45,681 nt of DNA from Candidatus Woesearchaeota archaeon (lineage in GTDB: Archaea > Nanobdellota > Nanobdellia > SCGC-AAA011-G17 > GW2011-AR18). The notes under the pieces were generated by a model. It was not told where the DNA came from. It did no database searches and saw nothing but the letters and a program-made list of their open reading frames with translations. Positions 1,278 to 26,725 of the stretch are shown here, in pieces (the stretch's first letter is position 1; each line of letters begins with the position of its first letter). The stretch covers positions 1 through 45,681 of the forward strand of contig JAGVZM010000006.1 of the NCBI GenBank assembly GCA_018302545.1. Reading direction: 5' to 3'. The position numbers were made by a program, and so were the translations under genes.

Positions 1278-4200
1278 GCTTCTAACTTCTCCCACAATTA
1301 AAGCAGAATCTCCCATTCTTAAAGAAGTTCTTATTCCTTCGTCTGCTCCTAATTCAGATCCTGATTTTAATAAAGCGGATCTAACCTTCATTGGTTGAAT
1401 ATCATAACCTAATTTTGCTAATGGTTCTACTGGAATCTCTCTTGTATTATGAGCAACTACCCCTCCAGTTATAAAACTTTCATCTCCTGGAATGGATAAA
1501 TCGTAAACATAATCTTCAAAATCTTTTATTATTTCAATTGATCTTACTTGATCCCAATATAAATCTGATTTAGCTAAATTTTGTAAATTTTCTATTAATT
1601 TATTTTGTAATTTTGTTTGTTGTAACAGATTTCCTAGTTTTTCTCTACCTAAATTATTATTTCTTAAGATATAATCTCTGTAGTTAAAATTTGTTAAAAT
1701 TTGTTTAATCTCTTTTCTATCTTCTAAAACTAAAGGAATCACATCTCCTGAATCATGGGTTGAATTTTTTGAGCATAATTTTTCTAAAGATTTTAATTTG
1801 TAGTTTGGTAGAAATCCAACATTCTGTTCAAATAACCTGCAAAACTTAAGAGTACTTATTGAAGAAGGGTATGTTTTATCGCTTTCTCTAAATTTTCCTA
1901 TTCTTAAAATTATTCCTAAATTGAATAATAGGTTTTGTATGTCCTCTAATAATTTTCTTGAAGATAGGCTCATTGTTATTTCAGACTTAGCTACATGACC
2001 ATCTCCACTATACATCCCTTTTAAAACTTGAGAAATTTGCTTTTTAGATAGATTAAACATCCAGTTTGGAATTCTTTTTGTATAAGCATTTCCCCTTAAT
2101 TCGAAAACTTTTATCATTATCTCTTTTAATGTTTTTGAGTTTAACATCAAAGAAAATCCATCAGAGTGCATTTTTACATTAAAATTATATTTATTTGCAA
2201 GTTCATAAGCAAATTCTCTATTTTCTTCTTCAACAACTGATAGAAGAACCGAATTTTTGTCATAACACCCATCAGCTATCCATAATCCAAAGAAAGTTAG
2301 TAAATTATCATCTAACTTTAGTTTAATTGGTAATGCACCTCCATGATTGCCATGTTTGAATTTTGCATTTTCCAATGAAGAAGTATCATAACCTAAACAG
2401 GCCATATCTTTTATTATTTTTATTGGAATTATGCCTTCTCTAATCCACCTACACCTTAAAGATCTATTGTGTTTATGTTCTTTGCCTAATTGATGTATTT
2501 CAAATTTATTATTTTTTAAGAATTCTTTAACACAATCTCCAAAAATGTAACCGTTATCAAATTTTTCTAAATGGTCTAATAGAGATATTTCTTTTATTTC
2601 ATTTAAGTTTTCTGGTATTTTTCTTGTTGTTGCTATGAAATCTTTTTCTTTTATTTCATTTACTTTTATTTCTGAAATTTCTGCATTTTCTCTTAATCCA
2701 AACAACGAATGATCTCCTGTTACTTTTATTACTTTCCCCGTTCTTGTTGTTATTTTATAAATTGGTTTCTTTACTTTGTGTCTAATTAATTTTGTTGGTT
2801 TTGACCATTTTATTTTTCCTTTTTTATCCATGGAAAGAATTTCTATATTTTCATTGTTGCCAGATACTTCATGATTTGATAAAGAATACCAAAGACTATA
2901 AGTATCTAGATTATGGTCAACTAATTTCCCAATAGTTGTTCTTTCTATTTTATTTGCTTTTTTTATTAAAATCTCGGAATCTCCTGTTACACTATCTTCA
3001 ATTACAATTATTCTATATTTCCTCATAATCTCTACTAAAACAGAACCAATTAGACTAGTTTTACCTGATCCTCTAGTTCCAGCTATGAGTAAAGTTCTGG
3101 AACCATCAATAATAAAACTTAGTAGACCTGCTGCTAAATCATTAATCATACCACTTTTAATAAATAAAGGTAATGTCCAAGGTTTGTCTCTATGTCTTCT
3201 TATAGAAAATGCTAAGCCTGTTGGATTTAATGGTCTAGAGATTATAGCTACTCTTGCTCTTGCTTCTGGCAAGGTTAATTCTGTATCCAAAACTGGATTT
3301 GCTTCATCTAAAGGCCTAGCAGATATTAACCTAAATTTTGATGCCCAACTTTCAACATCTTCAGCTGAAGGAACTATGTTGGTTATACATTCATCATATT
3401 TTCCATGAACTAAAAAGATAGGTGTTGCTCCTGCAGGAGAATTTATTGCTATATCTTGAACTTCTGGGTCTAACAATAATGATTCTATTAAACCAAAACC
3501 AACAGTATACCTAACTAATATTTGTGCTAATTCTTCTATTTCTTTATACTCTAAAGGAATTCTTTTATGTTCTGATAATTCTGTTATTAAATCTCTGCCA
3601 ATATTAAAAAATGTCGTTCTCATTTTTTCTGGATCAATAAACTCTTCTGCTTTTGGTTGATGCTCTGCTAATACTTTTCTTGCTAATTCTAAAAGCTCGT
3701 ATTTATCTTCAGTTAATTGAAATTCTGGGGGGGTTATGTGATAAAGCGGTTTTATAGTATCTTTTGTGTTAAAAATTTGTATGTGTGTATTTTTATTTAA
3801 GGTGTAAGCATCAATTTCTTCTCCATCTAATGGGGGAGTAGCTGCTAATCTAGTATACATAAAATCTGGAGTTATTGTTGGATGGAATATTTGTTTATAC
3901 AAAGATCTTGATTCAATTTCGTATCCATCAATTTGATCTTTTACATTTTGAATTAGTTTTGTATTATATAGTAAAGAGTATATCTCTGTTAAGATAGATA
4001 AATAGGGTTGAACTTGTGTTTTATATTCTTCTGGAGGATTGTTTGATAAATTAATTTTTTCTTCTCTTATTAATCTTTTAGTTTCTACAAATGCTCCGAC
4101 AGGATCTGTTCTTAATAAATTTAGAACAACATATTGTAAACTTTGTATTCTTGAACTTACATCAGGCAATGGCCCGAAAACTTCTAAGGCTGCTTGTGTT

Positions 4201-4484
4201 AGAATACTTTTTTGTTTTATAAAGTGATTATATATTTGTGCAATTTCTAGGAGCATCTGTGTTTGATTGTATCCATATTCATATTTTTTCTTTTGATGAA
4301 AGGTTATTCTAGATACAGAGGGGGTTTGAGATAATTTTTCTACTATTGAAGACATTACTAATGCATCATCTTCTATAGAAGGAATTTTAGGATAAGATTC
4401 GTAATTTATGTGCATTATTTCTTCTGCACCTTCTTTTAGTACTTCATGCTCTCCTGGTTTTGTCTTTTTTTTGAATAATACCAT
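1..4484 (-). CDS. Type II/IV secretion (VirB11/archaellum-type) ATPase with two inteins, 3' end off the window
   Basis: Open in one frame from ATG at 4484 to the left edge (1494 complete codons, no stop). The N-extein (residues 1-497) has a helical N-terminal region and then the RecA-like core, with a Walker A GTRGSGKT around residues 468-476 (near 3060) and an Asp-box strand ending IVIED. After intein 1 the extein resumes with TREIPVEPLAKLGYDIQ and runs 56 residues through the Walker B-type strand ALIVGEVRS, where intein 2 begins. The family consists of hexameric cytoplasmic ATPases that power type IV pilus, archaellum or type II secretion assembly. FlaI/ArlI-like, PilB/TadA-like or KlbA-like cannot be told apart here. 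It is divergent from two coiled-coil genes that may belong to the same machine. The rest of the ATPase lies outside the window. The family call is confident, the subtype is not. Confidence 0.88.
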   Translation of the reverse strand, partial: MVLFKKKTKPGEHEVLKEGAEEIMHINYESYPKIPSIEDDALVMSSIVEKLSQTPSVSRITFHQKKKYEYGYNQTQMLLEIAQIYNHFIKQKSILTQAALEVFGPLPDVSSRIQSLQYVVLNLLRTDPVGAFVETKRLIREEKINLSNNPPEEYKTQVQPYLSILTEIYSLLYNTKLIQNVKDQIDGYEIESRSLYKQIFHPTITPDFMYTRLAATPPLDGEEIDAYTLNKNTHIQIFNTKDTIKPLYHITPPEFQLTEDKYELLELARKVLAEHQPKAEEFIDPEKMRTTFFNIGRDLITELSEHKRIPLEYKEIEELAQILVRYTVGFGLIESLLLDPEVQDIAINSPAGATPIFLVHGKYDECITNIVPSAEDVESWASKFRLISARPLDEANPVLDTELTLPEARARVAIISRPLNPTGLAFSIRRHRDKPWTLPLFIKSGMINDLAAGLLSFIIDGSRTLLIAGTRGSGKTSLIGSVLVEIMRKYRIIVIEDSVTGDSEILIKKANKIERTTIGKLVDHNLDTYSLWYSLSNHEVSGNNENIEILSMDKKGKIKWSKPTKLIRHKVKKPIYKITTRTGKVIKVTGDHSLFGLRENAEISEIKVNEIKEKDFIATTRKIPENLNEIKEISLLDHLEKFDNGYIFGDCVKEFLKNNKFEIHQLGKEHKHNRSLRCRWIREGIIPIKIIKDMACLGYDTSSLENAKFKHGNHGGALPIKLKLDDNLLTFFGLWIADGCYDKNSVLLSVVEEENREFAYELANKYNFNVKMHSDGFSLMLNSKTLKEIMIKVFELRGNAYTKRIPNWMFNLSKKQISQVLKGMYSGDGHVAKSEITMSLSSRKLLEDIQNLLFNLGIILRIGKFRESDKTYPSSISTLKFCRLFEQNVGFLPNYKLKSLEKLCSKNSTHDSGDVIPLVLEDRKEIKQILTNFNYRDYILRNNNLGREKLGNLLQQTKLQNKLIENLQNLAKSDLYWDQVRSIEIIKDFEDYVYDLSIPGDESFITGGVVAHNTREIPVEPLAKLGYDIQPMKVRSALLKSGSELGADEGIRTSLRMGDSALIVGEVRSSIRGNEEVLITESGIMKRVRIQDLEGKDLSKIYIPSMDFDLKFKLKKLIALVKHPQRTKLLEVITRTGRKITVTPDHSLFTHKNFKILPIECQELKIGNKIIIPEKLPTIKNGPTHIDLLELLKDEDCRIEGYEEDLKQIIKKIGWKKASEICDCSNDIYQYLRKGKQHTNLPINSYKKLTIEANQNLNLETLQIKKGTSKTLSVNLEISKDFCRFLGYYASEGWTENTGSVVFSNDNPKIKEDMISLSKKLFNINPYIRQTKGLGFSTQIAIKNKILALTLKKIGCGRTAIDKRIPSIIFSLSEEKICEYLKGYFDGDGSQTSKEYSGNRIAAGTISKGLANDLMYLFLNIGIVSKLYEREPRGKGKHKQYIVEFKQRKYVNIFLEKIAFKKYTKEIINRQTSHSTLNTIDYTKELLEKHIKIK
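1446..2993 (-). other. Intein 1 (complete, 516 aa, LAGLIDADG endonuclease) in the secretion ATPase
   Basis: Residues 498-1013 of the ATPase reading. Block A starts with Ser1 (SVTGDSEILI) directly after extein IVIED. Block B is VTGDHSLF (2709-2720). The two LAGLIDADG helices read FFGLWIADG (near 2270-2295) and GMYSGDG (near 1998-2016), both with acidic residues kept. Block F/G reads YDLSIPGDESF then GGVVAHN, ending in His-Asn with Thr as the +1 extein residue. Removing it rejoins IED to TREIPVE, the expected uninterrupted family sequence. All splice-junction residues are present, so it is probably splicing-competent with a possibly active homing endonuclease. Activity itself is inferred. Confidence 0.9.
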
Positions 4485-9606: not shown

Positions 9607-12600
9607 ATGATTAAAAGAAAAAATTGGTGTGATTTAATGGGTAATTTAAAATTAGGGATATTATCAATTTTAATTTTTGTTCTAATTCTAAACTTTGTTT
9701 ATGCTGAAAATTGTTATTTGAATGATGGAAATCAAAGTTCTTGTGAATCAGATTCTACTTGTTTCTGGGATTCTTTTGGAAATTGGTGTCAAGATAGGGG
9801 CTGTTGGAATTTATATGATCAGTCAGATTGTAGTAATTCCACAGAGATTTTAAATTTGAGTTGTAATTGGAGAACAGGAAATGCTAATTGGTGTCAGGCC
9901 GCAGATTGTTGGATTTATGATGGTACAGATGAAAATACTTGTGAAACAAATACTGCAGGATTAGCTTGTGAATGGAATGAAGAATGTCATGGTGGCCCTA
10001 ATTGCTGGAATATAGATAATCAGAATACTTGCCAAAGCACCTCTGGATGTAGTTGGGGTGGATGTTTTAGAAAAGGTTGTTGGGATTATGAAACTCAAAA
10101 TGAGTGTTCTGGACAGACAGGAATAGATGGAAGAGATTGTGCTTGGGATTCTTCAAGCAATCATTGTTATCAGCAAGGCTGTTCAGCATACACAAGTCAA
10201 TCTATATGTACAGATAATGGATGTGTTTGGGATAGAGGTTCTTGTATTGAAGGGGGCTGTTGGACTTATTCATTTACAAATCAATCAACATGTGAGGGAT
10301 CTGGTTTGAATTGTCAATGGAGCGATCCTTTTTGCCAAGAATTGGGATGTTGGAGTTTAGGTAATGAATCTAGTTGTCAAGCTTCTTCTGAAAATTGTCA
10401 ATGGGTTACAGATACAGGTGGTTGGTGCGAACAATTGGGTTGTTGGTCTTTTGATGGAACAGATAATGATACTTGTGAAAGCTCTGGTTTAGGGTGTGCT
10501 TGGAGTGATAATAATGATCCTATTAATTCTTGTGAGGCTATTGCAGAATCTTGTGGTGACCTTTCGGATACAGATCAGGATACTTGTGAACTATCAGGAT
10601 TGAACTGTAATTGGAATGATCCTGTATGTGAAGCTGTAAATTGTTCTGATTTTGATGGTACAGATGAAAATAGTTGTATTTCTGCAGGAAGTCTATGTAG
10701 TTGGAACGATCCACTTTGTATTCAATTTACTTGTGACCTTTTATCAGATACAGATCAGGCAACTTGTGAAGGTTTAGGAAATTTTGGACTTTATTGTGCA
10801 TGGGCTGATCCTTTATGTAATCCTGTAAATTGTGATGATTATAGTAATTCTGATCAAAATACTTGTGAATTTTATGGATGTAGTTGGGATCAAGAAGCTC
10901 CGGAAGGACCATCTGGGTGGTGCTATTATGATTGGAGCGCAGTAGATTGTAGTTCTATAACAAACCAAAAACAGTGTTATGATACTTACTATTGTTGGTG
11001 GGATTTAGGACAATCAACATGTCAAGAACCAGAATCTGATGTTGGATTTACAGCATGGAACCCTAGTTGTTATATTTTTAATAATAATCAAACTACTTGT
11101 GGTTTAGTTAATGGTTGTGAATGGGATGATGTAGAAAGTGAATGTACTGCTTCAGAAATTGATGTTGCTCTTAATGGTATTTCTTGTGAAAACGTTTCAG
11201 ATTCAAACTTATGTAATTCAATAAGTGTTTTATCCAACTGTTGTAGTTGGCAGGCAGGGAATTGTACTACAAATAGATTTAGTACTGCTTGTTGGGACAA
11301 TCAGCAAACTCCTCCTGAGGGAGCTAATTTTTGTGAAGATTGGGCAGCATATACTAGCCAGACGTTGTGTGAACAAATAGCAAATGATCCTTGGTATATG
11401 CCTTGTGTTTGGGATTCAAATTCACAAAGATGTAAGTTTAATGATGCTGCATTTGGTGGAAGTGTTAATTTTGATGATATAACTAATTTACAAGGTTGTG
11501 AGTTAGCTGGTGGAAGATGGATACAAGAATTTTATTGTAGTGGTGAAAATTCTATTCCAACAGGAAGATGTGAATATAAATTTGATGAAGAGACTAATTG
11601 TAATAGGGCTTGTCATGCATGTGAGAGCAGAACAGATGGTAGTGAGTGGGGAACATTAGGAAATGCCAAAGATGCATGTGAAAATTCTGATTTAGGTTAT
11701 TGTGAGTTCAAGCAAGATCCTAATGCTCCAAATAGTTTTGGTTGGTGTGATCCTAAAGCCGTTTTCTTAAGTGGAAGTGCAGGAAGTTGTGATAGTGATT
11801 GTCGTTCTTGTACATTTATAGGAAGTATAAATGAAGGTGGTCCTCAGGCAGCTTGTCAAGCAAGTTCTGCTAATTGTAGATGGCATACTGACCCATTAGA
11901 TTCTTCAAGAGGAGAATGTAGAAGTTCTGATGAAAAATCTTGTGAAGATGAATGCAGTAAATGTTATGAGCAAGAATCTTGTGTAAATTATGGGAAAGGT
12001 GGAGATGGTGTTTGTACTTGGGATACTTCTGGTGGATTCTGTAAAACTGCTGGAGGATCTGATGAAATATGTTATGATGGTAGTGATAATGATGGTGATG
12101 GATCTATAGACTGTGCTGATAATAATTGTTTGTTTGATCCTTTTTGTGGTTTTACAGATAGTGGTAATTGTTGGGGTTATTCTGACCAAAATAGTTGTGA
12201 GACTAATAACTGTGCTTGGCTTGTTGAATCTCACGGTGATAATGTTTACCAAGAATGTGCCCCTCCTGGTGCTGAATGTTGGCAATTAGATGGAAATCAG
12301 ACTGCTTGCGAGGAACGTGTTGGTGTTTGTGTTTATTTTGCTGGAGGAATTTGTGAGCCTCCTGAAGAGAATGCTCAATCTTGTTTTGCAGCAGGAAATC
12401 AAAGTTCTTGTGAAGCGATAAATGGATGTAATTGGAATGAAGATCCTTGGTGTTTAAGTCATCCTAATGATCCTGGATGCCAGACAAGTACAGGTTGGTG
12501 TGATTCTGCAGCATTTTCCTGTTGGATAAACACAAATGAAACATCTTGCACAAGTAATTCTTATTGCAGGTGGACTAATGATACTCATTCACCAACTGGT

Positions 12601-15186
12601 GGATGGTGTGATAATTCATGTTTTGCCTCTCATGATCAAAATTCGTGTGAAGGAACTGAAATTAGCTCAGGAGTTAATTGTGAGTGGGTTGGAGGATTAT
12701 GCGATCCTGCATTCATGCAATCTTTTGGAGGAAGTGCAGCAGGTTATGGTGTGGAGTGTTGGTTATTTGATGGTAATGAAACAAGTTGTGATTCTCAAGA
12801 AGGTTGTTCTTGGACGAATAATAATAATGCTTTCTGTGGAATTGATTTCACATATAATTGTTATCAATATGGAGATCAAGGTAGTTGTGATTTAAGTCCT
12901 GGTTGTAAATGGGCAGGTAGTTGGTGTGATGGTGCTGCAACAGAATGTGGTTGGAATCAGAGCTTACAGGCAGATCAAGCAACTTGCGAGAGTAATCCTC
13001 TATGTGGCTGGACAAATAATGGACAAGGTGGATGGTGTGATGCTATCTGTTTTGGTGCAAATAAAAATTCTTGCCAGTCCATTACAGGTTGTTTATGGAA
13101 TAATGGATTGTGTGAGGCAGAAGGAAATGCTAATTTCCATAATCAATTTGAAACAAGAGTTGGAGAGCCTGTTGATTTAGGAGATGATCCTACAGGAGAT
13201 TCTACTCAAGATCATGTAGATATAACTGGATGGGGATATGGGGATATGGGTAACCAATATGCATTTGGAATGCCTATGGTTGATATGAGTCAAGCAGCAT
13301 TATGTAAGGGGACAAATTTACCTACGGGTGTTGGTGTTGGAACTTCAACAGGAAAATATTATGTATATTTGGATACAGATGGTTCGACTACTGGAAATTG
13401 TGCAACTAAACATGATAATGAAAATGTTGGAAAAGAGTTCTTCTTTAGTATGAAATCTGAATTTGATAGTTCTACTGGAAAATCAAGGCAAACTTTTACG
13501 GCACAAAGATGTGTTGATGGTGCTTGGGGTGCAACAGATATAGTCTTAAGTACTTTAGAAAAATTTGCTTGTGAAGAAGTTGGAGGCGCAATTATAATAA
13601 TTGATAAAAAAGATTTAGAAAAGTATAATATTTATAATCCTAATGCTGTTATGGGAGTAGAAGTTGCTGCTGCTGATACAGATGGAAATGCTCAAACCCC
13701 AAGTGATACTGTTAGCGCTTCTGGATATGTTACTCCAGGTACTTCTGGATTTAGTTCTGAATGTTGTTGGACAAGGGGAGCTGATTGTAATTCAAATGGT
13801 CTTCCTTCAGAAATAGATCCTGAATGTTCTTCAATAAACAAGCAAGGATTTATCCAATTTGAAGATTGTTATACAAACACAGATAATAATGGAGATGGTT
13901 TAGCAGGATGCTTTGATTATTCTTGTTTAGATAATAATTATTGTGTTCAAAATCAACTAGGATTAAATGATCCTGATTATGTTGATACAACAACACCAAA
14001 GGTAGTAAATGTTAGAACAGAGGTGTATCCTGATTCAGCTTTAATAAGTTATGATACAAATAAACCTTCTTCTGGGCAATTGTTGTATTATGGTACTGAC
14101 TCTGCTTGTAGAACAAGTAATTTGGTTGCAACAGTTAATGATATAGGTTTGATAAGTAGTGATGTTAAAGATTATAAATTATGGCATGAAGGTTTAGTTT
14201 ATGATGATGATGGAGTTGACTCTTTAACAGACCCTTTAGCAGAATCCACAACTTATTATTATAAATTAAAAGTTTGCGATAGTGGTAATAGATGTGGTTC
14301 TTCAGCTTGTTCAAGTTTTACAACAACAAACATACAAGATTGTAAAGTTTGTAATTTTGTAACAAGGTTAAATGTTCCTACTGATTGGGAAGTTAGTTAT
14401 GATATTGATCAGGATGGTACTTTTGAAGTTCAGGGTGTAGAATGTAATAATCCTCAAGCAGGAGTTTTAACAACTTATTTAGAAGGTAGAAATGCTGATC
14501 TTAGATTAACAAATACTGAAAGCTCAAGTTATATTACATTTAGAAATGCTAGAATTACAAAGAGTGCATTAAATGAGAAAATTAAAACCTTGAATGGGGC
14601 AGGTTCAATAATCCAAGGTACATTGGAATCTGGAGCAGGTTATGCAGGTCTACCAAGTAGTACCAGAGATAAGATAATCAATACGCTACATCCACAAACT
14701 TGTGAGTTAAGAATACCTGGTGATGGAACTTGTGAGGAATTGTGGCATTGTGATGATAATCTAGAGAATTGTATTGATAGAACTGATGAATCTATTTTAT
14801 TGGAAACTGGTGAGGATTATTGTGAATGGCAGATTCCTTATTGTGAGTTCTCAACTTGGGCAGGTGGAGATCCATCTAGTGATCCTCCTTCGAACAACCC
14901 TTCTGGTAGTTCTTCTGCTGCATCTGGGGGAGGAGGAGGCAATACAGGAAGCCCCTCTAGAAATAATCCTCAAATAAATCAAGAATTAAGTGAATCAGGT
15001 GAGGCTTTTGAAGATAATTCAAAAATAGTTAATCAAGATAACAATCAACAAGAAAAGATAGACCAAACATCAGAGTTAGATAATAATTTAGAGGGAAAGT
15101 TTAACTTTGCTATGGTTCTTTTAATAATAGGTGTTTTGGTTTTAGGAAGTATCATAGTTTTCTTTGTTTTAAAAAATAAAAATTAA
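9607..15186 (+). CDS. Giant cysteine/tryptophan-repeat cell-surface protein
   Basis: 1859 residues. An N-terminal hydrophobic signal (about 14-33, ending NFVYA) precedes Cys36. Residues about 36-1170 are dozens of degenerate modules of about 25-40 residues. Each has four Cys and a CxW core: C(W)-x8-10-C-x6-12-CxW-x6-12-C. Fifteen can be followed back-to-back in residues 36-530. Asp-rich, probably calcium-binding loops occur near residue 825 (SDNDGDGSID) and near 1425 (TDNNGDG). A fibronectin-III-like domain spans about 1461-1574. A Ser/Gly/Pro linker (about 1752-1783) leads to a C-terminal helix (1834-1855) with a short KNKN tail. It is likely anchored in the membrane and exposed, with disulfide-stabilised modules. 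Function could be adhesion to a host or S-layer-like. ATG 9637 is an alternative start. Confidence 0.85.
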   Translation: MIKRKNWCDLMGNLKLGILSILIFVLILNFVYAENCYLNDGNQSSCESDSTCFWDSFGNWCQDRGCWNLYDQSDCSNSTEILNLSCNWRTGNANWCQAADCWIYDGTDENTCETNTAGLACEWNEECHGGPNCWNIDNQNTCQSTSGCSWGGCFRKGCWDYETQNECSGQTGIDGRDCAWDSSSNHCYQQGCSAYTSQSICTDNGCVWDRGSCIEGGCWTYSFTNQSTCEGSGLNCQWSDPFCQELGCWSLGNESSCQASSENCQWVTDTGGWCEQLGCWSFDGTDNDTCESSGLGCAWSDNNDPINSCEAIAESCGDLSDTDQDTCELSGLNCNWNDPVCEAVNCSDFDGTDENSCISAGSLCSWNDPLCIQFTCDLLSDTDQATCEGLGNFGLYCAWADPLCNPVNCDDYSNSDQNTCEFYGCSWDQEAPEGPSGWCYYDWSAVDCSSITNQKQCYDTYYCWWDLGQSTCQEPESDVGFTAWNPSCYIFNNNQTTCGLVNGCEWDDVESECTASEIDVALNGISCENVSDSNLCNSISVLSNCCSWQAGNCTTNRFSTACWDNQQTPPEGANFCEDWAAYTSQTLCEQIANDPWYMPCVWDSNSQRCKFNDAAFGGSVNFDDITNLQGCELAGGRWIQEFYCSGENSIPTGRCEYKFDEETNCNRACHACESRTDGSEWGTLGNAKDACENSDLGYCEFKQDPNAPNSFGWCDPKAVFLSGSAGSCDSDCRSCTFIGSINEGGPQAACQASSANCRWHTDPLDSSRGECRSSDEKSCEDECSKCYEQESCVNYGKGGDGVCTWDTSGGFCKTAGGSDEICYDGSDNDGDGSIDCADNNCLFDPFCGFTDSGNCWGYSDQNSCETNNCAWLVESHGDNVYQECAPPGAECWQLDGNQTACEERVGVCVYFAGGICEPPEENAQSCFAAGNQSSCEAINGCNWNEDPWCLSHPNDPGCQTSTGWCDSAAFSCWINTNETSCTSNSYCRWTNDTHSPTGGWCDNSCFASHDQNSCEGTEISSGVNCEWVGGLCDPAFMQSFGGSAAGYGVECWLFDGNETSCDSQEGCSWTNNNNAFCGIDFTYNCYQYGDQGSCDLSPGCKWAGSWCDGAATECGWNQSLQADQATCESNPLCGWTNNGQGGWCDAICFGANKNSCQSITGCLWNNGLCEAEGNANFHNQFETRVGEPVDLGDDPTGDSTQDHVDITGWGYGDMGNQYAFGMPMVDMSQAALCKGTNLPTGVGVGTSTGKYYVYLDTDGSTTGNCATKHDNENVGKEFFFSMKSEFDSSTGKSRQTFTAQRCVDGAWGATDIVLSTLEKFACEEVGGAIIIIDKKDLEKYNIYNPNAVMGVEVAAADTDGNAQTPSDTVSASGYVTPGTSGFSSECCWTRGADCNSNGLPSEIDPECSSINKQGFIQFEDCYTNTDNNGDGLAGCFDYSCLDNNYCVQNQLGLNDPDYVDTTTPKVVNVRTEVYPDSALISYDTNKPSSGQLLYYGTDSACRTSNLVATVNDIGLISSDVKDYKLWHEGLVYDDDGVDSLTDPLAESTTYYYKLKVCDSGNRCGSSACSSFTTTNIQDCKVCNFVTRLNVPTDWEVSYDIDQDGTFEVQGVECNNPQAGVLTTYLEGRNADLRLTNTESSSYITFRNARITKSALNEKIKTLNGAGSIIQGTLESGAGYAGLPSSTRDKIINTLHPQTCELRIPGDGTCEELWHCDDNLENCIDRTDESILLETGEDYCEWQIPYCEFSTWAGGDPSSDPPSNNPSGSSSAASGGGGGNTGSPSRNNPQINQELSESGEAFEDNSKIVNQDNNQQEKIDQTSELDNNLEGKFNFAMVLLIIGVLVLGSIIVFFVLKNKN

Positions 15187-15200
15187 ATTGTTTGGTGAAT

Positions 15201-15908
15201 TTAGGCTGCTAGTTTTGAGAATAATTTTTCTCCTCTCTGAGAGGCATTACATTGATCTAAGAAGTAATGATCTATTGAAGGTACAACCATCTTATCTTTA
15301 TAACTCTCTTCTATTCCATGTTTACTACCACTATTTTTTCTGAATCTTCCTAATAAAGCATATGCTCCTCCATCTGCCATGTTTACAATAGGATATCTTC
15401 TATCTGCATTAATTCGGAAGTCTATTTGTTCTAAGGTAAGGATCTTTCCATATCCTTCTTTTAATGCATGAGGAATGCCTATTTTTACTCTTGGCATTTC
15501 TGACCCATCGATTAGAATTAGGGCTTTATCTAATGTTTGTTGACTATATTCATTTAACATTAAAGCAATTGCTAGAACTGCAGATGGAATAAAACCAAGG
15601 CTACTTACTTGTTGCGCATTCAATAATAAGAATCTATAATCAACTTTAGCTGCTTCTAGGAGTTCTATAGAATCAGTTTTTCTTCTTTTTCCTAATATCT
15701 CTTCTCTTTCTTCGCTATCTAAAGGATCTTGAGAAACTGCGACCATATAAAAATAGGTTTTTGTTTTATCATCTATAGACCAGTCTATACCCATAGAAGG
15801 AAATTGTTTTGAATGTAGAGTTCTATCTTCAAGAGTTTGATCTCTTCTTGGAATTTTTATGACATCAAGCCAATCTTGATGGCTAGTATCTACCCTCTTT
15901 TTCCCCAT
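15201..15908 (-). CDS. Diverged RNase HII-like (RNase H fold) protein
   Basis: 235 residues. The sequence follows the order of archaeal RNase HII: MGIDWSIDD (D42) where GIDEAGRG is expected; ALILIDG (D134) where a VDG strand is expected; and NADRRYPIVNMADGGAYALL (D169) where KADxxYPxVxAASIxAK is expected. Thus three of four catalytic acids align, but the Glu after the first Asp is Trp43. RNase HII removes ribonucleotides from DNA and RNA primers. A diverged, possibly inactive or altered-specificity member is proposed. Homology is inferred from motif order and spacing, not from a search. It lies at the end of the giant gene in convergent orientation and starts the accessory region. Confidence 0.5.
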   Translation of the reverse strand: MGKKRVDTSHQDWLDVIKIPRRDQTLEDRTLHSKQFPSMGIDWSIDDKTKTYFYMVAVSQDPLDSEEREEILGKRRKTDSIELLEAAKVDYRFLLLNAQQVSSLGFIPSAVLAIALMLNEYSQQTLDKALILIDGSEMPRVKIGIPHALKEGYGKILTLEQIDFRINADRRYPIVNMADGGAYALLGRFRKNSGSKHGIEESYKDKMVVPSIDHYFLDQCNASQRGEKLFSKLAA

Positions 15909-16049
15909 CTAATCTTATTTTAAGAATAAATGTAAATTTAAATCTTTATTTTTTTAGTTAGAAGTTATGATTAGAAGTTTTCGATATTTGTTCTGTTTGG
16001 AATTTTTAATCTTTAATAAGAGATTATGCTTATTTTAATTTTATCTTCT

Positions 16050-16158
16050 GATTAAATATTTTGATTTTAGGTTATAATTTGTGATTTTGTTTTATGATTA
16101 AAATATTTAGTTTTTGAGATTATTATTTAGATTTTTATTGTGATTAAATATTTTAGTC
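16050..16158. repeat. Cluster of three 17-bp palindromic repeats (GATTAAATATTTTARTC type)
   Basis: Copies at 16050-16066 (GATTAAATATTTTGATT), 16096-16110 (GATTAAAATATTTAG) and 16142-16158 (GATTAAATATTTTAGTC). The consensus is a near-perfect palindrome. It lies in the 268-base gap between the RNase HII-like gene and the recombinase module, a gap in which nothing else is recognised. Further copies occur at 17616-17657 and 18724-18785. Confidence 0.55.
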
Positions 16159-16176
16159 TTTGATTGTATTGTTTTA

Positions 16177-16368
16177 TTATTTCTCCCAAATATCACCTGC
16201 TTTTTCAAAAGCAATCTTGTTGATCTTTTTTTCAATTTGATTAACACAATTTTCAACATTTTCATTAATATCAGACTCAAAAAATCTAAGAATGTGCCAG
16301 CCGTTTTTAGACAAATGCTCCTCTTTTAATTTATCAAGTCCTAATTTGTCAATTTGTATTTTACTCAA
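16177..16368 (-). pseudogene. Fragment resembling the C-terminus of Vsr/DUF559-type endonucleases
   Basis: 63 residues starting two bases after the recombinase stop codon. KNGWHILRFFESDINENVENC resembles the last strand and helix of very-short-patch-repair and DUF559 nucleases, where a GWxVLRF-type strand is followed by a helix. The catalytic N-terminal two thirds of such a nuclease are absent, so it is either a remnant or a very small protein of unknown role. Its tight linkage to the recombinase suggests it is cargo debris or an operon partner. Confidence 0.4.
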
Positions 16369-16370
16369 TT

Positions 16371-17132
16371 TTATTTATAGTATTTCATCTTTTCTTGAAC
16401 TTTGTTGAATAGCTCCTCATCTAATAATGGTTGGTGCACTCCTTTATTTGATTTGCCTGAAAATTTTGTTTCACCCAAATAAGCTCTGTTTTTTAGTAAT
16501 TTTTTTAAACCGTTAACACTTAATTGGTTTTTTATTGCTAGTTGGTTTAGGCTTGTTTGTGAATTTAAGAATTCTTCATAGATATTTTTAACTTGTAATG
16601 CTTTTTCAGGATCTATTTTTAATTGTCTTTCTATCATCTTATATCCTAGTGGTGCTTTTGTTATTGCTCCTCCCTCTTTTGATTTTCTTTCCATTCCAAA
16701 AAATGTTCTTTCTCCAATAATATTTCTTTCAAATTCTGCAAAAGCAGAGATTATGTGAAACATTAATTTTCCAGAAGCTGAAGCAGTTTCTATTCTATCC
16801 TGCAAAGAAATAAAATCAATTCCCCATTCTTTTAGTTTTTCAATTGTTAGGATTAAATCTTTTAAGCTACGAGAAAATCTATCTAGTTTGTAAATAAATA
16901 TTGCTGAAAATTTTTTGGATTCTGCGTCTTTTAGTAATTCGCTCATCGCTGGCCTATTTTTGATATCTTTGGCTGACTTTCCTTCATCTTTGTAAATTTT
17001 AAATAAGTTGTAACCTAAGGCAGAACAATAATTTTTTAATGAATCTTCTTGTCCTGCTAGAGAAAACCCATGTTGGGCTTGTTCTTCTGTTGAAACCCTT
17101 ACATAGATTGCAGCTAGTGGTTTATTTTCCAT
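16371..17132 (-). CDS. Serine site-specific recombinase (resolvase/invertase family)
   Basis: 253 residues. The N-terminal catalytic domain begins AAIYVRVSTEEQ with nucleophile Ser14, and contains FIYKLDRFSRS and the helix SAFAEFERNIIGERT. It is followed by a Recombinase-type domain (APLGYKMIERQLKIDPEKA) and a short C-terminal part that reads LKNRAYLGETKFSGK. Large serine integrases are usually twice as long with zinc-ribbon and coiled-coil parts, so this is a short form. It would cut and rejoin DNA at att or res sites and mark the region as mobile. A possible site lies just upstream (17151-17204). No integrase partner or transposase is nearby. Confidence 0.85.
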   Translation of the reverse strand: MENKPLAAIYVRVSTEEQAQHGFSLAGQEDSLKNYCSALGYNLFKIYKDEGKSAKDIKNRPAMSELLKDAESKKFSAIFIYKLDRFSRSLKDLILTIEKLKEWGIDFISLQDRIETASASGKLMFHIISAFAEFERNIIGERTFFGMERKSKEGGAITKAPLGYKMIERQLKIDPEKALQVKNIYEEFLNSQTSLNQLAIKNQLSVNGLKKLLKNRAYLGETKFSGKSNKGVHQPLLDEELFNKVQEKMKYYK

Positions 17133-17677
17133 CTTTTTAGATTATTTTATGCACTTAGGGTTATATAGTTTACGATTTATTGGAACTTAGGGCTCCCTTA
17201 GTGCACAAAAATTTAGTAGTTTTTGTTGGATGCTTAAAAGTTTTAGTTTTTGACAATTAGGTTAAAGGATAATTATTTCCTTATCTAATTAATTGTTTTT
17301 ATTCTTTCGTTAAGATAGGTATTTCTTTTGAGATCTCTCTTGATTCTGTTTTAAGTAGGAGCTATTAAACCATTTAGAATTTCAATTCCTGTTCTGCTCC
17401 TATCTTCAAAAATTTTGTGAACGTTTTTTATAAATTTTGACGACTTTTCAAAGCTTTTTAACTAGCTTTTTCGATATAATTAACCAAAGGAGAGTTTAAA
17501 GCTTGAATTTTGGGTTTTTAAGCCTTATAATCCCTTTTTAGATTATAGAGAGTATATAATCCAATCAGATTTATTTCTCTCTGAATTTTTTTGATATCTA
17601 AAAATTTTGTTTTTTGATAAAATATTTTAATCTTTTATTGTGACTAAATATTTTAGTTTTAAGTTAGATCTTTTAGT
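17133..17677. other. 545-base gap in the accessory region; palindromic repeats only
   Basis: No convincing gene was found. The right part contains two more copies of the 17-bp palindrome (17616-17632 and 17642-17657). On the minus strand a short open stretch (about 17348-17462) without a start codon reads protein-like (ending GIEILNGLIAPT), and could be a decayed gene end. The rest is AT-rich. Confidence 0.4.
17151..17204. promoter_or_regulatory. Imperfect inverted repeats upstream of the recombinase, candidate recombination or operator site
   Basis: GCACTTAGGG (17151-17160) faces CCCTTAGTGC (17195-17204), with another ACTTAGGG at 17185-17192 between them. The minus-strand recombinase ATG lies 19 bases away. 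TTATATAG (17161-17168) in the middle is TATA-like. Repeats with this spacing next to a recombinase suggest a res-like or autoregulatory site, but no cross-over dinucleotide can be named. Confidence 0.35.
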
Positions 17678-18103
17678 TTATTGTAAGGGATATATTTTCG
17701 CTATTTTTGTACGTAATTTTTCGACTTCTTTTCTTTTAAGAGATCTTCTATGCCAAGATGCTAAATCTCCATCTTGACAGAAAGTTAAACTTCCGGAACC
17801 TACTCTTCTTTTGTCTGTAACAGTCTTAATACTCATGTAAAGTAGTTTGTGATCTATTATTCTATATTTTGAAAAGTCTTCTACTATCTTTTGAGCCACC
17901 ACACTTATAGAAGAGTACCTTTCATCGTTATCGATCCCTGCTTCTGAATTTTTACCTTCGGGCCCCAGAATAGATAATTCGTAAACTGTTCTCCTTCTTT
18001 TTGTATCTGGAATACGATGTTTTTCATCAAAAGAGACTTCATCTGAAGCAAGGACTAAATATTCTATTGTTGTATCATCTTTTAAATATTCTATTCTCTT
18101 CAT
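17678..18103 (-). CDS. Hypothetical protein
   Basis: 141 residues, not recognised. The sequence is hydrophilic and basic at the C-terminus (SWHRRSLKRKEVEKLRTK). Earlier there are beta-strand-rich stretches (TIEYLVLASDEVSF; RTVYELSILGPEG) and a helical SVVAQKIVEDF. No signal peptide or membrane segment. The ATG at 18103 has a clear upstream purine-poor leader and no strong ribosome site. It lies in the accessory block between 17-bp palindromes and may belong to the same transferred element. Confidence 0.5.
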   Translation of the reverse strand: MKRIEYLKDDTTIEYLVLASDEVSFDEKHRIPDTKRRRTVYELSILGPEGKNSEAGIDNDERYSSISVVAQKIVEDFSKYRIIDHKLLYMSIKTVTDKRRVGSGSLTFCQDGDLASWHRRSLKRKEVEKLRTKIAKIYPLQ

Positions 18104-18207
18104 ATCTGTTTTAAAGGGAGGAAGAAAAAACTTAAAAACCTATCTTAAGCCTTATAAGCATTAAATTTTAGCTTCAAAGCATATTTTATGGTATTTGGGT
18201 AGAAAAT

Positions 18208-18666
18208 CTAGCTGTTTAAATCTAAATTTTTATAATAAACTTGACAAGATTTTGGAAGTTGTGACTTTGCTTCCCTTACTTTTTCTAAGAGCTCTAGCCT
18301 CCCTCTGTTTGTCAATTTTGATATTTGTTTTTGAGATTTATAATATGATCCAAGCTCATTTTCAAAGTAAAGGCAATCACCTTCGTCAATTACTCTGTTT
18401 GCAGGTTCTCCTAAAATTCTGTCTCTGTCTTCATAATCCATATAATTTAGAGAGTTTCCATAAAAACTACTATACCTACATACAAGTAACAACCCTTTTG
18501 TTTCGTGTGGAACTTTTGCACATTCTTTTTTTCCACAATTTTTTAGGATTTGAGCTAATTCTGATACTTCTTGTTCCGAGGTTGGTGCTGTTTTTGGTTC
18601 CTCATTTGTTGAGTAAGAGAATAAAATTATTGTTAAAAATGAAGAAAAAAATATTGTTTTTGTAAT
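18208..18666 (-). CDS. Predicted secreted protein with no conventional start codon
   Basis: Reading from 18666 gives 152 residues: ITKTIFFSSFLTIILFSYST is a good signal peptide, followed by a low-complexity EEPKTAPTSEQE stretch, then CGKKEC and further Cys (LLLVCRYSS; DEGDCLYFE; KSCQVYYK), suggesting a small exported disulfide protein. The frame is closed by TAG right before ATT at 18664-18666, and the first ATG/GTG/TTG in frame is TTG at 18492, which would remove the signal peptide. So translation may start at ATT, or the original ATG mutated and the gene is decaying. A TATA-like TTTATAA lies about 40 bases upstream. Family not recognised. Confidence 0.45.
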   Translation of the reverse strand: MTKTIFFSSFLTIILFSYSTNEEPKTAPTSEQEVSELAQILKNCGKKECAKVPHETKGLLLVCRYSSFYGNSLNYMDYEDRDRILGEPANRVIDEGDCLYFENELGSYYKSQKQISKLTNRGRLELLEKVREAKSQLPKSCQVYYKNLDLNS

Positions 18667-18723
18667 CTAACTTGAGAATATTAATTATTTTTAATCTTTT
18701 TTGGGTTATAAAATTTAATTTAA

Positions 18724-18785
18724 GACTAAAAATTTTAATCTTTGCTATTTTATAATCATTTAGTTTTTGATTAAATATTTTAATC
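18724..18785. repeat. Two further copies of the 17-bp palindrome
   Basis: GACTAAAAATTTTAATC (18724-18740) and the perfect-consensus GATTAAATATTTTAATC (18769-18785). They lie in the 427-base gap 18667-19093, where otherwise only AT-rich sequence without a recognisable gene is seen. Confidence 0.55.
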
Positions 18786-19093
18786 GCCTTATTTTTTATT
18801 TGATATTTAAAAGTTCAAGAAATTGTAAGTTAACTCTCTGTTTAAATCTATAGAAATAAATTTCTAAACTCACTAAAATTTGATTAGAATAAATTAATTA
18901 GTTTTTTGTTGTAAATTCTTTTTCTTTATCTTCGTTATTATAGGTTGAATAAACAAAAGAATCTTTTTTTGAAATACCAAAAGGAAATAGTTATAGTAAT
19001 CTTTTTTTAAGTAATTTTTTGAGGATCTATTTAATAAAGGACAATTTCTATAAATTTGAGGACCATACTATAAATTATTATGTAAATTCTTTC

Positions 19094-19729
19094 TTATTCA
19101 TTAAGTTCTAATTCTTTAATAACTCTTTGAATTTTTGTGTTTTTCAAGATTTGATTTCCATAGGGGGTGATTTTTGCATAAGCTTCTCTTCCAATTCTTT
19201 GTTTATCTACCATCCCCTCAGTATATAGTCTTAAGATAAATTGTGTAATTGTAGACCTTATTGAATTATACTCTTTTCCAGGATATAAATAATTTGCAAG
19301 AGATTTGTAGGAGATATGTTTTGCATTCAAGCTGTTTTGTAGTTCGTATAATGCTTTGAATAATTTAAGTTCTGCTCTTGGTAAGGATCTTAATACATTT
19401 AGAATTGGTGGTGTTGAAGTTTCTGGTTCAACTAAGATTTCCTCTTCTAATTCTTTATAATTTAGTTGTATTTTATTTATGTGAGTAGAAGAACTCTCTT
19501 TTTCTTCTTGATTTTGTTTGGTAGCTAATAATCGCTCGATCCTTTTCATTCTATCTTCTATTACTAAAAATTTATTGTTCGTACTTTTTGTGTGTTCTTC
19601 TACTATTCCATGTAGATGAAGGATATCTTTTTTTACATTGTTGAAAGAACCCTTTAGGTGTTCACTAATCTTTATTAGATTGTGTTGTTCACTCTTTCTT
19701 TTTTTAGATATGAAATCAAATATGCCCAT
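19094..19729 (-). CDS. Coiled-coil plus winged-helix DNA-binding protein
   Basis: 211 residues. Residues about 15-85 are a coiled coil, 85-110 a polar linker, and about 115-200 a winged-helix domain: RAELKLFKALYEL, then ISYKSLANYL as the likely positioning helix, SIRSTITQFILRLYTEGMV as recognition helix and wing, ending AKITPYGNQIL. It shares this layout with the protein at 20343-21107. The upstream gap contains GTTCGGT boxes which could be its operator or iterons. It may act as a repressor, partition or replication regulator of the accessory element; no enzymatic domain is present. Confidence 0.65.
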   Translation of the reverse strand: MGIFDFISKKRKSEQHNLIKISEHLKGSFNNVKKDILHLHGIVEEHTKSTNNKFLVIEDRMKRIERLLATKQNQEEKESSSTHINKIQLNYKELEEEILVEPETSTPPILNVLRSLPRAELKLFKALYELQNSLNAKHISYKSLANYLYPGKEYNSIRSTITQFILRLYTEGMVDKQRIGREAYAKITPYGNQILKNTKIQRVIKELELNE

Positions 19730-19792
19730 TATGATTTATAGTTTGTTTGTTGTATTTATATTTTACTGATTTTGTTTAGATAAATATAATTG

Positions 19793-19940
19793 TTCGGTGA
19801 ACAGTACTGAACTGTTTTCTAATTGTTCTATAAATTATTTTGCTTAATTAAAGCTTAAATCCTATAAATATGGCCACTGTTCGGTATTGTTCGGTAAACG
19901 TAGGTGACGTCACCAAACGGTTCGGTAAACGTAGGTGAAC
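19793..19940. repeat. GTTCGGT repeat cluster with a perfect palindrome
   Basis: GTTCGGT occurs four times: near 19793 (as GTTCGGTGAAC), at 19879, 19889 and 19920. The last two are parts of an exact 19-bp direct repeat GTTCGGTAAACGTAGGTGA (19889-19907 and 19920-19938) with a 31-bp period. Between them is the perfect 12-bp palindrome GGTGACGTCACC (19903-19914). The cluster lies in the 613-base gap upstream of the winged-helix gene at 19094, with a TATA-like CTATAAATA (19862-19870). Iteron-like origin or operator are the options. A small open frame at 19962-20078 (38 codons) follows it but cannot be supported as a gene. Confidence 0.6.
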
Positions 19941-20146
19941 AACTAATTTTACATGAGATAAATGATTTTTATAGATAAGAAGTATAAAACAGATGTTTTG
20001 ATGAGATTAGAGAAAAATAATAGGGGTCTGTCTATTTTTAGCAAAAGTGAGGATTATTATTTTGCAAATGGTTCATAATTAAAGGAGAATAATTCTCTTT
20101 GTCAAAAAATAAGCATAGGTTTTTATTATTTTCAATAAAAATGAGA

Positions 20147-20248
20147 CTTATTTTTACAAAAATTCGGTTCAGTGATTGATTGAAACTTAAAAATGAGAGT
20201 TGATTAATGAAAAATCTTTAATTTTGATGAAATTTTTGTAAAAATAAG
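20147..20248. repeat. 18-bp perfect inverted repeat with related degenerate copies
   Basis: CTTATTTTTACAAAAATT (20147-20164) and its exact reverse complement AATTTTTGTAAAAATAAG (20231-20248), 66 bases apart. Degenerate relatives (TTTGTCAAAAAATAAG, near 20099-20114; TTTGTGTAAAAAACAC, near 20275-20290) lie on both sides. It is in the gap 19730-20342, just downstream of the winged-helix gene at 20343. Candidate binding sites or an element end. Confidence 0.5.
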
Positions 20249-20342
20249 GGTAATATGGATGAAAACTTGAAATTTTGTGTAAAAAACACTAAAAATGAGT
20301 ATTAATTGGAGCTAAGTAGTTATTGATTGATTGAAATAAGTG

Positions 20343-21107
20343 TTAAACAGAGTTAAAAAGGGTTTTTTGATTAGGATCTGAGTCATAATAAAGATTTATT
20401 AATTTCTGTTTTAGATTTAATGTTTTGAAGTCTGGATGTATGAAAACAAGGTTTAAACGATTATTTAACCGTTTTTTAACAATAGGGGCATTTTTCTTTA
20501 TTATTGAACTTATGTGGCTCCTAATACAATGTTCAGATAGTCCCATTTTAATAGAAAGGGCTTTATAAGTTGTTTCTAGGCCCTCCTCCTCCATTTGATA
20601 AATAGATAAGAAAGTTTTTAGCTCTTGTTTGGATAATGATAAAAAAACCTTAGAAAGATCATTGGTTAGTTGTTTTAGTTGGGTTTTGGGTGGTTGTTGA
20701 TTGATTAAATGATTAAATGATTGATTAGTGATTGATTGATTGATTGATTGATTAGGCTGTTTTTCATTAAAAAAAGAGCTATTTTCTGGGCTTTTCTGTG
20801 GTTTAATCTCGTTGTTTTTGGCGTTTTCTGCCCAAATAGGACTATTTTGTGATTGATTAGTGTTTAAGTGATTGATTGATTGATTGATTAAATGATTGAT
20901 TGATTGATTAACCCCCTCATTTCCTGTGGAACTCTCCTTTTTTAGGCTTTTAAGCTCCTCTTGAAAGGAGATTAATTTTGTAGAAATTTTGCTTATTAGT
21001 TCGTTTTGTTGAGAAATAATGGATTTTAGGGTCTTTATTTCTTCAGAGAGAGCCTGAATATCTTCTTTTACTTTAGAGAAGGAATTTTTTAGAGCTTCTT
21101 CGTTCAT
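20343..21107 (-). CDS. Coiled-coil plus winged-helix protein with tetranucleotide tract
   Basis: 254 residues. Residues about 5-60 are a coiled coil. Residues about 65-140 are a low-complexity segment with repeated INQS and INHL units encoded by tetranucleotide tracts. About 150-230 is a winged-helix domain (SKQELKTFLSIYQ, TYKALSIKMGL, EHCIRSHISSI) aligning with the protein at 19094-19729. The C-terminus is a 20-residue tail. Presumably DNA-binding, perhaps dimerising through the coiled coil. The tracts sit between coiled coil and DNA-binding domain, so slippage would remove the latter. Its gap to the neighbouring gene is rich in inverted repeats. Confidence 0.65.
   Translation of the reverse strand: MNEEALKNSFSKVKEDIQALSEEIKTLKSIISQQNELISKISTKLISFQEELKSLKKESSTGNEGVNQSINHLINQSINHLNTNQSQNSPIWAENAKNNEIKPQKSPENSSFFNEKQPNQSINQSITNQSFNHLINQQPPKTQLKQLTNDLSKVFLSLSKQELKTFLSIYQMEEEGLETTYKALSIKMGLSEHCIRSHISSIIKKNAPIVKKRLNNRLNLVFIHPDFKTLNLKQKLINLYYDSDPNQKTLFNSV
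20702..20910. repeat. Tetranucleotide (ATTG/TGAT) tracts inside a coding region
   Basis: ATTG is repeated five times at 20731-20750, four times at 20871-20886 and TGAT about four times at 20893-20908, with broken copies between. Read on the minus strand they encode Ile-Asn-Gln-Ser cycles. Gain or loss of one unit shifts the frame of the winged-helix gene. Confidence 0.7.
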
Positions 21108-21177
21108 CTCCTTTTTATTTTAAGAGGAATATAAAAGAATTCTTGATTTTTTATATATGTGTTTGATTTAGTATTGT

Positions 21178-21609
21178 TTAAGATTGGTTTTCTTGATTTG
21201 TGGGTTTTGCACTAATAATTGGAAAGGTCATATGAAGGGGCAACCCTACCATTTCTTCTAATTCTAATGCCTTTACGCTTGCCCTTCTTATAATATGGTT
21301 ATAGATTGAGGCATGGAATTCTGGGTTTGTCTTTTTTTCTACTTTCCATTCATTTATGTGTTTTTTAATAAGTTCTGCATTGTTATCATGACATATTAAA
21401 AAACCATTAAGTTCTAATTTTCCTGCGTTTGAATAATTAACAATAAACTCAAAATAAACTGTTAATGCGGGTCTTTCTTCATCTCCTATTTTTAAGTTGC
21501 TTGATTCAATATCTTTTATTTTTATATTGTTTTGAATTTTATCTTCGTTTGAGAACTGTGCTTTTTTTTCAACACTTATTTTTTCAAGACCAAAACTTAT
21601 TACTTGCAT
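21178..21609 (-). CDS. Conserved-looking hypothetical protein
   Basis: 143 residues, mostly alternating strands with a helix near the end. Notable segments are VYFEFIVNYSNAGKLELNGF, LICHDN, and a C-terminal helix IIRRASVKALELEEMVGLPL followed by HMTFPIISAKP. The ordering (antiparallel strands, then a long helix and a Pro-terminated tail) recalls SecB-like chaperone folds, but this is only an impression. No signal peptide or membrane segment. ATG at 21609. It is alone on the strand between accessory genes. Confidence 0.5.
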   Translation of the reverse strand: MQVISFGLEKISVEKKAQFSNEDKIQNNIKIKDIESSNLKIGDEERPALTVYFEFIVNYSNAGKLELNGFLICHDNNAELIKKHINEWKVEKKTNPEFHASIYNHIIRRASVKALELEEMVGLPLHMTFPIISAKPTNQENQS

Positions 21610-21739
21610 GGGGATGTTGAAGAGATAGACTATTTAAACTTTTTTATAGTTTTATTGTTATTTTTTATTTGATTTTTTTATTTATTACGCCTTGATGAAT
21701 CAAAATATTTAATTATTTGCCTTGTGCCCAACTATTCTT

Positions 21740-22327
21740 ATGTATATTAGGTTGAAGAAAGTAAAAAAAGGAAAGGGTTCTGTATATGAATATGCCCATC
21801 TTGTGGAGGGAGTTTGGAAAAAAAGAAAACAAATTAAAGAGGAGATACAAGGTCCTAAGTTTAGAAGATTCAATAATTCTACACATAAATATATCCGTTT
21901 TCTTGGAAGGGTTTATCATTTTGAAGAAGATTTAATGAGGGGGGATCAAGATTTAAAGGATTTTGAAAATTTAATTAAGAATCTTTCTGTTAAGGAATTA
22001 TATTATATCTTAATTGGAAATATTTTGCTCTCTAGAGGGTTTATTAAAAAAGAAAATGCCTTTTTTAACGGAGATTTTTCAGTAGATTTGAATTCCTTCA
22101 CTATTCGGAGATTGGATCAAGAAGTTGTGTTAAAGTTGTTAAAAAGAGGAGGGTATTTATGTAAATATAGTTTGGAGGAGTTGTTTAAGGTTGATAGAGT
22201 TAATAATAGGGAAGAAGGTCTTTTTTTTATGAAAAAATTGAAAATGGTGGGAATTGAATTAAATGCAAATCTTTTTTTTATTTTAGTTAGTAAATTGTTA
22301 AAAGAGAGTAATAAGCCAGAAAATTAG
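21740..22327 (+). CDS. Hypothetical protein with a transposase-like N-terminal motif
   Basis: 195 residues from ATG 21740 (a TTG at 21722 is less likely). The N-terminus YIRLKKVKKGKGSVYEYAHLV resembles the start of archaeal IS4/IS1634-type proteins and their solo homologues, where a Lys-rich strand precedes a YAYLVE-like motif. No DDE catalytic domain follows; the rest is helical (LIKNLSVKELYYILIGNIL; YLCKYSLEELFKV), so it is not a transposase. Its stop overlaps the opposite gene by four bases (22324-22327). Confidence 0.5.
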   Translation: MYIRLKKVKKGKGSVYEYAHLVEGVWKKRKQIKEEIQGPKFRRFNNSTHKYIRFLGRVYHFEEDLMRGDQDLKDFENLIKNLSVKELYYILIGNILLSRGFIKKENAFFNGDFSVDLNSFTIRRLDQEVVLKLLKRGGYLCKYSLEELFKVDRVNNREEGLFFMKKLKMVGIELNANLFFILVSKLLKESNKPEN

Positions 22328-22827: not shown

Positions 22828-22922
22828 CTTTGATTAAAGAAAAACATGAAATTTAAATATGTTACTTTTTTATGGTAGTTAATGTGGGAAGGTTTATAAA
22901 TCTTTTAATTTAATTATTTGAG

Positions 22923-23384: not shown

Positions 23385-23499
23385 CTCTTTTTTTAATTGA
23401 TTTTAATAAGTTGTATAATTAATATATTTGTTACTTTTTAGTAGTATTTATTTCGAAATGTTTATATAGTAATTATTATTACTATTATTGAGGATTAAT

Positions 23500-26716: not shown

Positions 26717-26725
26717 GTGGAATTT

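Follow-up and report, generated by a model that had tools for sequence, protein, structure and literature searches.

What does a giant, cysteine-rich protein do on the surface of an archaeon that is thought to live on a host? The window, the whole stretch of 45,681 nucleotides of Candidatus Woesearchaeota DNA that was analysed, encodes such a protein in a single uninterrupted open reading frame on the forward strand (9607–15186; 1859 amino acids, 159 cysteines). A preliminary description made from the letters alone had delimited this frame exactly and had ascribed to its product four-Cys/CxW modules, Fn3-like and calcium-loop parts, a C-terminal anchor and a possible role in attachment or feeding.

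Layout of the giant protein and its four-cysteine modules

The features of the gene are listed below; an alternative, shorter start at Met11 is possible.

9607..15186, +: whole gene of the giant Cys-rich surface protein, 1859 aa (ORF translation)
9607..9705, +: predicted signal peptide, residues 1–33 (hydrophobic stretch preceding ENCYL; hydropathy peak at residue 14)
9709..11151, +: module array A, 15 four-Cys/CxW modules, residues 35–515 (pattern and profile matches; fold predicted from residues 217–312)
11290..12180, +: Cys-rich middle core, residues 562–858 (about 28 Cys invariant in 20 homologues)
12058..12147, +: acidic double-disulfide loop 1, putatively calcium-binding, residues 818–847 (NF033662, 28 bits; teneurin-4 C-rich, E 3.8e-5, family profile)
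12166..13119, +: module array B, residues 854–1171 (pattern and profile matches)
13162..14940, +: conserved C-terminal core, residues 1186–1778 (alignment of 21 homologues; AF2 pLDDT 85.4, pTM 0.79)
13162..13758, +: beta-rich domain, residues 1186–1384, tentatively carbohydrate-module-like (predicted structure and Foldseek)
13861..13947, +: acidic double-disulfide loop 2, putatively calcium-binding, residues 1419–1447 (invariant Cys 1435/1440/1446 and acidic residues; middle-core profile match)
14029..14325, +: Fn3-like domain, residues 1475–1573 (PF16656, E 8.7e-4, sub-threshold; Foldseek matches to Fn3 arrays)
14344..14886, +: C-terminal beta domain, residues 1580–1760 (homologue alignment and AF2 model)
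15106..15171, +: predicted transmembrane anchor, residues 1834–1855 (hydropathy peak at 1837; layout shared with most homologues)

With a signal peptide and a C-terminal transmembrane segment, both recognised by hydropathy, and a short, basic cytosolic tail of about four residues beyond the anchor, the predicted product is clearly a secreted, C-terminally membrane-anchored, modular protein, in keeping with the extracellular placement proposed earlier. Its architecture of modules, cores and anchor is well supported.

The modules follow the spacing C-x8/10-C-x4/10-C-x-W-x3/13-C and occupy residues 36–513, 576–609 and 854–1171. The first of these stretches holds exactly 15 units, the number of clear N-terminal units already counted in the preliminary description, while profile searches of the 1859-residue protein give 27–28 modules in two arrays altogether, so that the earlier word “dozens” was right about the repeat-built nature and slightly generous as a number. 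The strict pattern C-x7/11-C-x3/11-C-x-W-x1/13-C is matched 23 times; when the residues of the protein were shuffled 2000 times, it appeared 0.35 times on average and never more than 4 times. A profile of 351 copies has the consensus GCWNYTNQTTCEANSGCTWDSDSGWCEE. Modules are identical to each other at about 28% of their non-Cys positions on average, and since no tandem repeat was detected at the DNA level in the module array, the array is probably old. For a module triplet (residues 217–312), AlphaFold2, given an alignment of 126 module triplets, predicts with a pLDDT of 91.2 that every unit consists of a short helix, a helix and a two-stranded hairpin; by this model, each module is a helix-helix-hairpin unit. 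Array B also contains, at a fixed site that is the same in many homologues, a conserved two-Cys insert that is distinct from the modules (residues 950–971, about 12454–12519; WC...GWCD in most homologues).

The module probably contains two disulfides only, C1–C3 and C2–C4. These are the pairs that result when the disulfides of PSI and trefoil domains are mapped onto the module cysteines, and a pairing of this kind predicts what is found in three natural module copies short of two cysteines (two from one protein at locus L058 and one at L096; a small sample chosen by eye from a gap list), in which C1 and C3 are gone and C2 and C4 retained in 3/3. The gap-scan class with C2 and C3 kept, and one of four cases in the class with C2 and C4 kept (L140), were omitted by eye as instances of the separate two-Cys insert, not degraded modules. 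A Cys-blind profile was dropped in favour of the gap scan because variable spacing produced alignment artefacts.

Enzymes that could form such disulfides are encoded in carrier genomes. At L033 and L096, a DsbA-like gene (a PF13462 match in L033) directly follows the giant gene on the same strand, at distances of 16 and about 240 bp respectively, and the genome of the window has three DsbA-like genes, one of them adjoining a VKOR. VKOR is not enriched together with the modules (33 of 60 module-bearing versus 144 of 311 other genomes, p 0.26); 14 of the 17 module-rich carriers without a VKOR match have a DsbA-like gene. The enzyme genes support an extracellular oxidation of the cysteines through DsbA and VKOR, against which the missing VKOR enrichment counts. 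The 159 cysteines might instead form a metal-binding or redox store without disulfides, but this is hardly credible for a secreted protein with an invariant Cys pattern and a conserved Trp core, in which cysteines are lost as the pair C1 and C3 and whose genome encodes oxidising enzymes.

Relatives of the modules, loops and cores

A Pfam scan of the whole giant protein names nothing. When 100 single modules were compared with Pfam, Paramecium_SA was matched by 8, Trefoil by 7 and PSI by 4 (best E 6e-4, 1.5e-3 and 8e-4, respectively); after permutation of all residues except Cys and Trp, one match to each family was left (best E 0.2, 0.58 and 0.01), the best E-values being ~13- to 390-fold worse. 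One module aligns in identical register with PSI, with Trefoil and with half of the Paramecium_SA profile. Against PSI (PF01437), the best module reaches 21.1 bits (E 4e-4), under the Pfam gathering score of 23.1, and is aligned over profile positions 2–30 of 52 (C-x8-C...C-x-W...C), but it has about half the PSI length and four cysteines instead of the full PSI set of six to eight, and PSI is not recovered by Foldseek. The PSI domain of Met has four disulfides. Trefoil (PF00088) is matched by modules at 15.4 and 12.8 bits, under the gathering score of 21.0 (best E elsewhere 9.3e-4); the module shares the GCxWD...GWC core of trefoil or P-type domains, whereas the trefoil has three disulfides as against four cysteines in the module. 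The best module scores 16.5 bits in the alignment with Paramecium_SA (PF01508; gathering score 21.2; best E 6.2e-4). Paramecium surface antigens likewise have ~30-residue four-Cys CxW units in surface proteins, and the module matches half of the profile, but the match is sub-threshold and no common core domains are known.

Because its scores lie just under these three cut-offs, the module resembles known domains and does not pass as a member of any; the earlier view that it matches no nameable family therefore stands as far as thresholds are concerned and falls short with respect to these likenesses. In SCOP, trefoil and plexin repeats are one fold, with a common core and two shared disulfides, which are presumably those that the module would keep. 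A Foldseek search of the PDB with the triplet model gave no significant match (best E 5.8), and the trefoil/plexin fold is thus a putative assignment. The module is probably related or analogous to PSI/trefoil modules in a minimal form, and a fold that was known from trefoil factors, plexins and integrins may here have its smallest functional version. Two other candidates were discarded: EGF had zero matches in all Pfam scans, and matches of PDB chains to nothing but the modules (designed TIM barrels, a VSG fragment) were judged to be chance.

The calcium-loop part of the preliminary description corresponds to an acidic double-disulfide loop that occurs twice, at the end of the 300-aa middle core and again near residues 1419–1447. 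The loop has a known kin: the acidic double-disulfide repeat NF033662 scores 28 bits over two stretches, below its curated cut-off of 41, and in a family-profile search the loop hits teneurin-4 in its C-rich domain (E 3.8e-5), a domain whose crystal structure has three bound calcium ions and is held by three disulfide bonds (PMC9058538). Aligned to the ligands listed there, loop 1 has an acidic residue or Asn at 8 of the 9 side-chain ligand positions (teneurin E835, D840, D843, N844, D845, D847, D851 and D854 correspond to D819, D824, D827, N828, D829, D831, D835 and D838), with the difference that the ligand D856 is N840 in the giant protein. Two of the three teneurin disulfides are retained in the loop (residues 819–847) and the third is missing, and the EGF, NHL and YD-shell domains of teneurins are absent from the giant protein in Pfam scans. 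The ligand pattern supports calcium binding by the acidic loops as in teneurin.

AlphaFold2 models the C-terminal core (pLDDT 85.4, pTM 0.79) as a beta-sandwich-like domain, the acidic loop, an Fn3-like domain and a last beta domain. The Fn3-like part had been recognised before; it is supported by the predicted fold and by a match of PF16656 to the isolated residues 1475–1573 that lies under the cut-off (E 8.7e-4). Foldseek with this core returned receptor Fn3 arrays and glucodextranase 1ug9 (189 columns, E 1.3e-3), and a search of a viral fold library returned generic Fn3/tail proteins only. A CBM9/DOMON or glucodextranase-type domain at residues 1186–1384 had no Pfam support and is named tentatively only. 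No binding or enzyme domain in Pfam reaches threshold in the giant protein.

Distribution and genomic setting of the family

A profile search with the module, which the preliminary description had proposed, detected modules (E < 0.001) in 60 of the 371 sampled genomes of the phylum (about 16%) and in 57 of its 259 genera, mostly in ORFs of 1400–2757 aa; in most members of the giant's own order, none were detected. Among 22 large Cys-rich proteins (1302–3327 aa), 18 have arrays of 16–43 modules and four are of a paralogue type with two or zero modules by the same profile; the middle core is present over most of its length in 20 and the C-terminal core in 21. These cores are mostly 40–48% identical to those of the window protein, in further families of the class too, and they stay while the module number varies; the modules themselves show little positional orthology between proteins. 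Many N-glycosylation sequons are found in the homologues, and in the same order long N-terminal domains precede the Cys-rich part at L034, L057 and in the second L058 protein. A 38-module protein with a middle core at L092 (6819–12824) has a different C-terminus, without the usual C-terminal core or anchor, and at L099 (10683–16055) the giant gene adjoins that of a 1790-aa surface protein with CxDGxxNQxExxxDCGG repeats, whose long cytosolic tail consists of repeating segments.

The window protein has all three parts by which we define the DPANN giant family, namely middle core, C-terminal core and modules. A distant paralogue with few modules is encoded in the same genome (L005, 2962–7077, reverse strand; 1371 aa); its relatives at L035 and L036 share a neighbourhood with ribosomal-protein-S2-like and MinD-like genes. 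A scan for relatives of the core across 84,980 named species, not exhaustive because one peptide pattern was used, found 55 loci. Fifty are archaeal, nearly all assigned to Woesearchaeota, Pacearchaeota, Nanoarchaeota, Aenigmarchaeota, other DPANN or “archaeon”, with one “Euryarchaeota” bin, and five are bacterial, with matches that hardly extend beyond the acidic loop. Aenigmatarchaeota sequences are nested in Nanobdellota clades in a quick tree, owing either to transfer or to misbinning. The family is unnamed in Pfam and NCBIfam, and no description of it was found in the literature searched, which is weak evidence of absence as subscription journals lay outside the search. Judged from its sequence, the window protein is a member of an unannotated family across tiny, probably host-dependent DPANN archaea. 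The preliminary observation was thus right and somewhat understated; the phylum-wide range, the conserved cores and the paralogue go beyond it.

The alignment of the modules to half of Paramecium_SA and their scant positional orthology would suit a variable coat on the cell surface, or a shield from viruses or grazers, comparable to Paramecium surface antigens. These ciliate antigens have lipid anchors and are encoded by large sets of variable genes, whereas the present genome has one main giant and one distant paralogue, and the identity of the middle and C-terminal cores across many families also speaks against variability, which makes such a coat highly improbable.

Across families, the giant gene has no conserved neighbour, and synteny is local only. 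At L034 and L057 the giant gene lies between the genes of the DNA polymerase D subunits (DP1-giant-DP2), and at L058 DP1 is followed by two giants in tandem; in the window, the two subunit genes are direct neighbours (26717–33104) and the giant gene is located elsewhere. DP2 (29607–33104) has an in-frame TAA at 32193–32195 (KLYGC*RFYNLKSRKD), at a site where the frame of relatives continues (KLYKMEPYYNLKKK); an error in the assembly, a split gene or a genuine mutation would each account for it. Many short hypothetical genes fill 15201–23500, and serine recombinase and response-regulator-like genes are found downstream of the giant (16371–17132 and 22324–22827, reverse strand; 23488–24117, forward strand). 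On the reverse strand at 3–4484, the translation is that of a type IV pilus/archaellum-type ATPase with apparently two intein-like insertions (VIEDS...VVAHNTREIP, GEVRSS...).

A candidate role in contact with another cell

In the archaeon's own genome (1.16 Mb, 95.6% complete) a polyprenyl synthase was not found, whereas the enzyme is present in 14 of 14 control genomes. The archaeon is therefore likely to obtain its lipids from a partner, which backs the earlier suggestion that this DPANN organism lives on a host, and VKOR and DsbA-like genes together with a missing polyprenyl synthase are what one would expect where a lipid-dependent archaeon makes an extracellular protein in oxidised form. 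Lipid uptake from a partner is reported for Nanohaloarchaeum (PMC11035636). Contact with another cell is to be expected from a genome that looks lipid-auxotrophic. We favour, with a probability of about 0.5, a secreted and anchored giant stalk, stabilised by calcium and disulfides, for cell contact, with the host as the likeliest partner. The module arrays would form a stiff, protease-resistant stalk that carries binding surfaces out past the surface layer of the cell itself, and the giant protein would mediate contact with a partner cell, most likely the host that supports the lipid-dependent DPANN archaeon. An attachment role is plausible at about even odds, and the protein is a good candidate for it.

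A repeat stalk would suit equally well an adhesin for same-species aggregation, biofilms or mineral or polymer surfaces, with which the weak fold match of the C-terminal core to glucodextranase 1ug9 would agree; no direct evidence separates this reading from host contact, but given the lipid-auxotrophic look of the genome we consider it decidedly unlikely. The single membrane anchor, the large size, the many sequons in homologues and an array length that varies around constant cores might denote a general cell-envelope protein, such as an S-layer-associated stalk or coat component without a role in host contact. The detection in 60 of 371 phylum genomes only, with none in most members of its own order, is however unlike that of a main envelope component, and we regard this explanation as possible, on balance rather unlikely.

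Since modules are detectable in only ~16% of the sampled phylum genomes, the favoured host-contact stalk is not a universal attachment device. Trefoil/PSI-like modules are otherwise known from animals and protists. That the family might be the main host-contact protein of a large part of Woesearchaeota/Pacearchaeota-type DPANN, with a minimal two-disulfide trefoil/PSI-like stalk that arose in or was acquired by archaea and was exchanged between DPANN phyla, is a bold extension that we hold to be unlikely. The family offers a concrete, widespread and sequence-defined candidate for partner-holding in the largely uncultured Woesearchaeota-type DPANN, and its two conserved cores are usable for expression, antibodies and proteome searches.

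Two DPANN systems invite comparison. Cryo-ET of Nanobdella aerobiophila shows an elaborate organelle for attachment (PMC11104419), and the SPEARE proteins of Nanohaloarchaeota are giant, mostly outside the cell and held by a C-terminal transmembrane anchor, with a proposed attachment role (PMC6642349); the available parts of both papers, on which these statements rest, do not mention the module family. The window protein shares with SPEARE proteins the very large size, the mostly external location, the C-terminal anchor and the DPANN source. In contrast to them, it lacks serine protease, laminin-G and intracellular restriction-type domains in Pfam scans and ends in a tail of few residues; it has a disulfide-module stalk instead.
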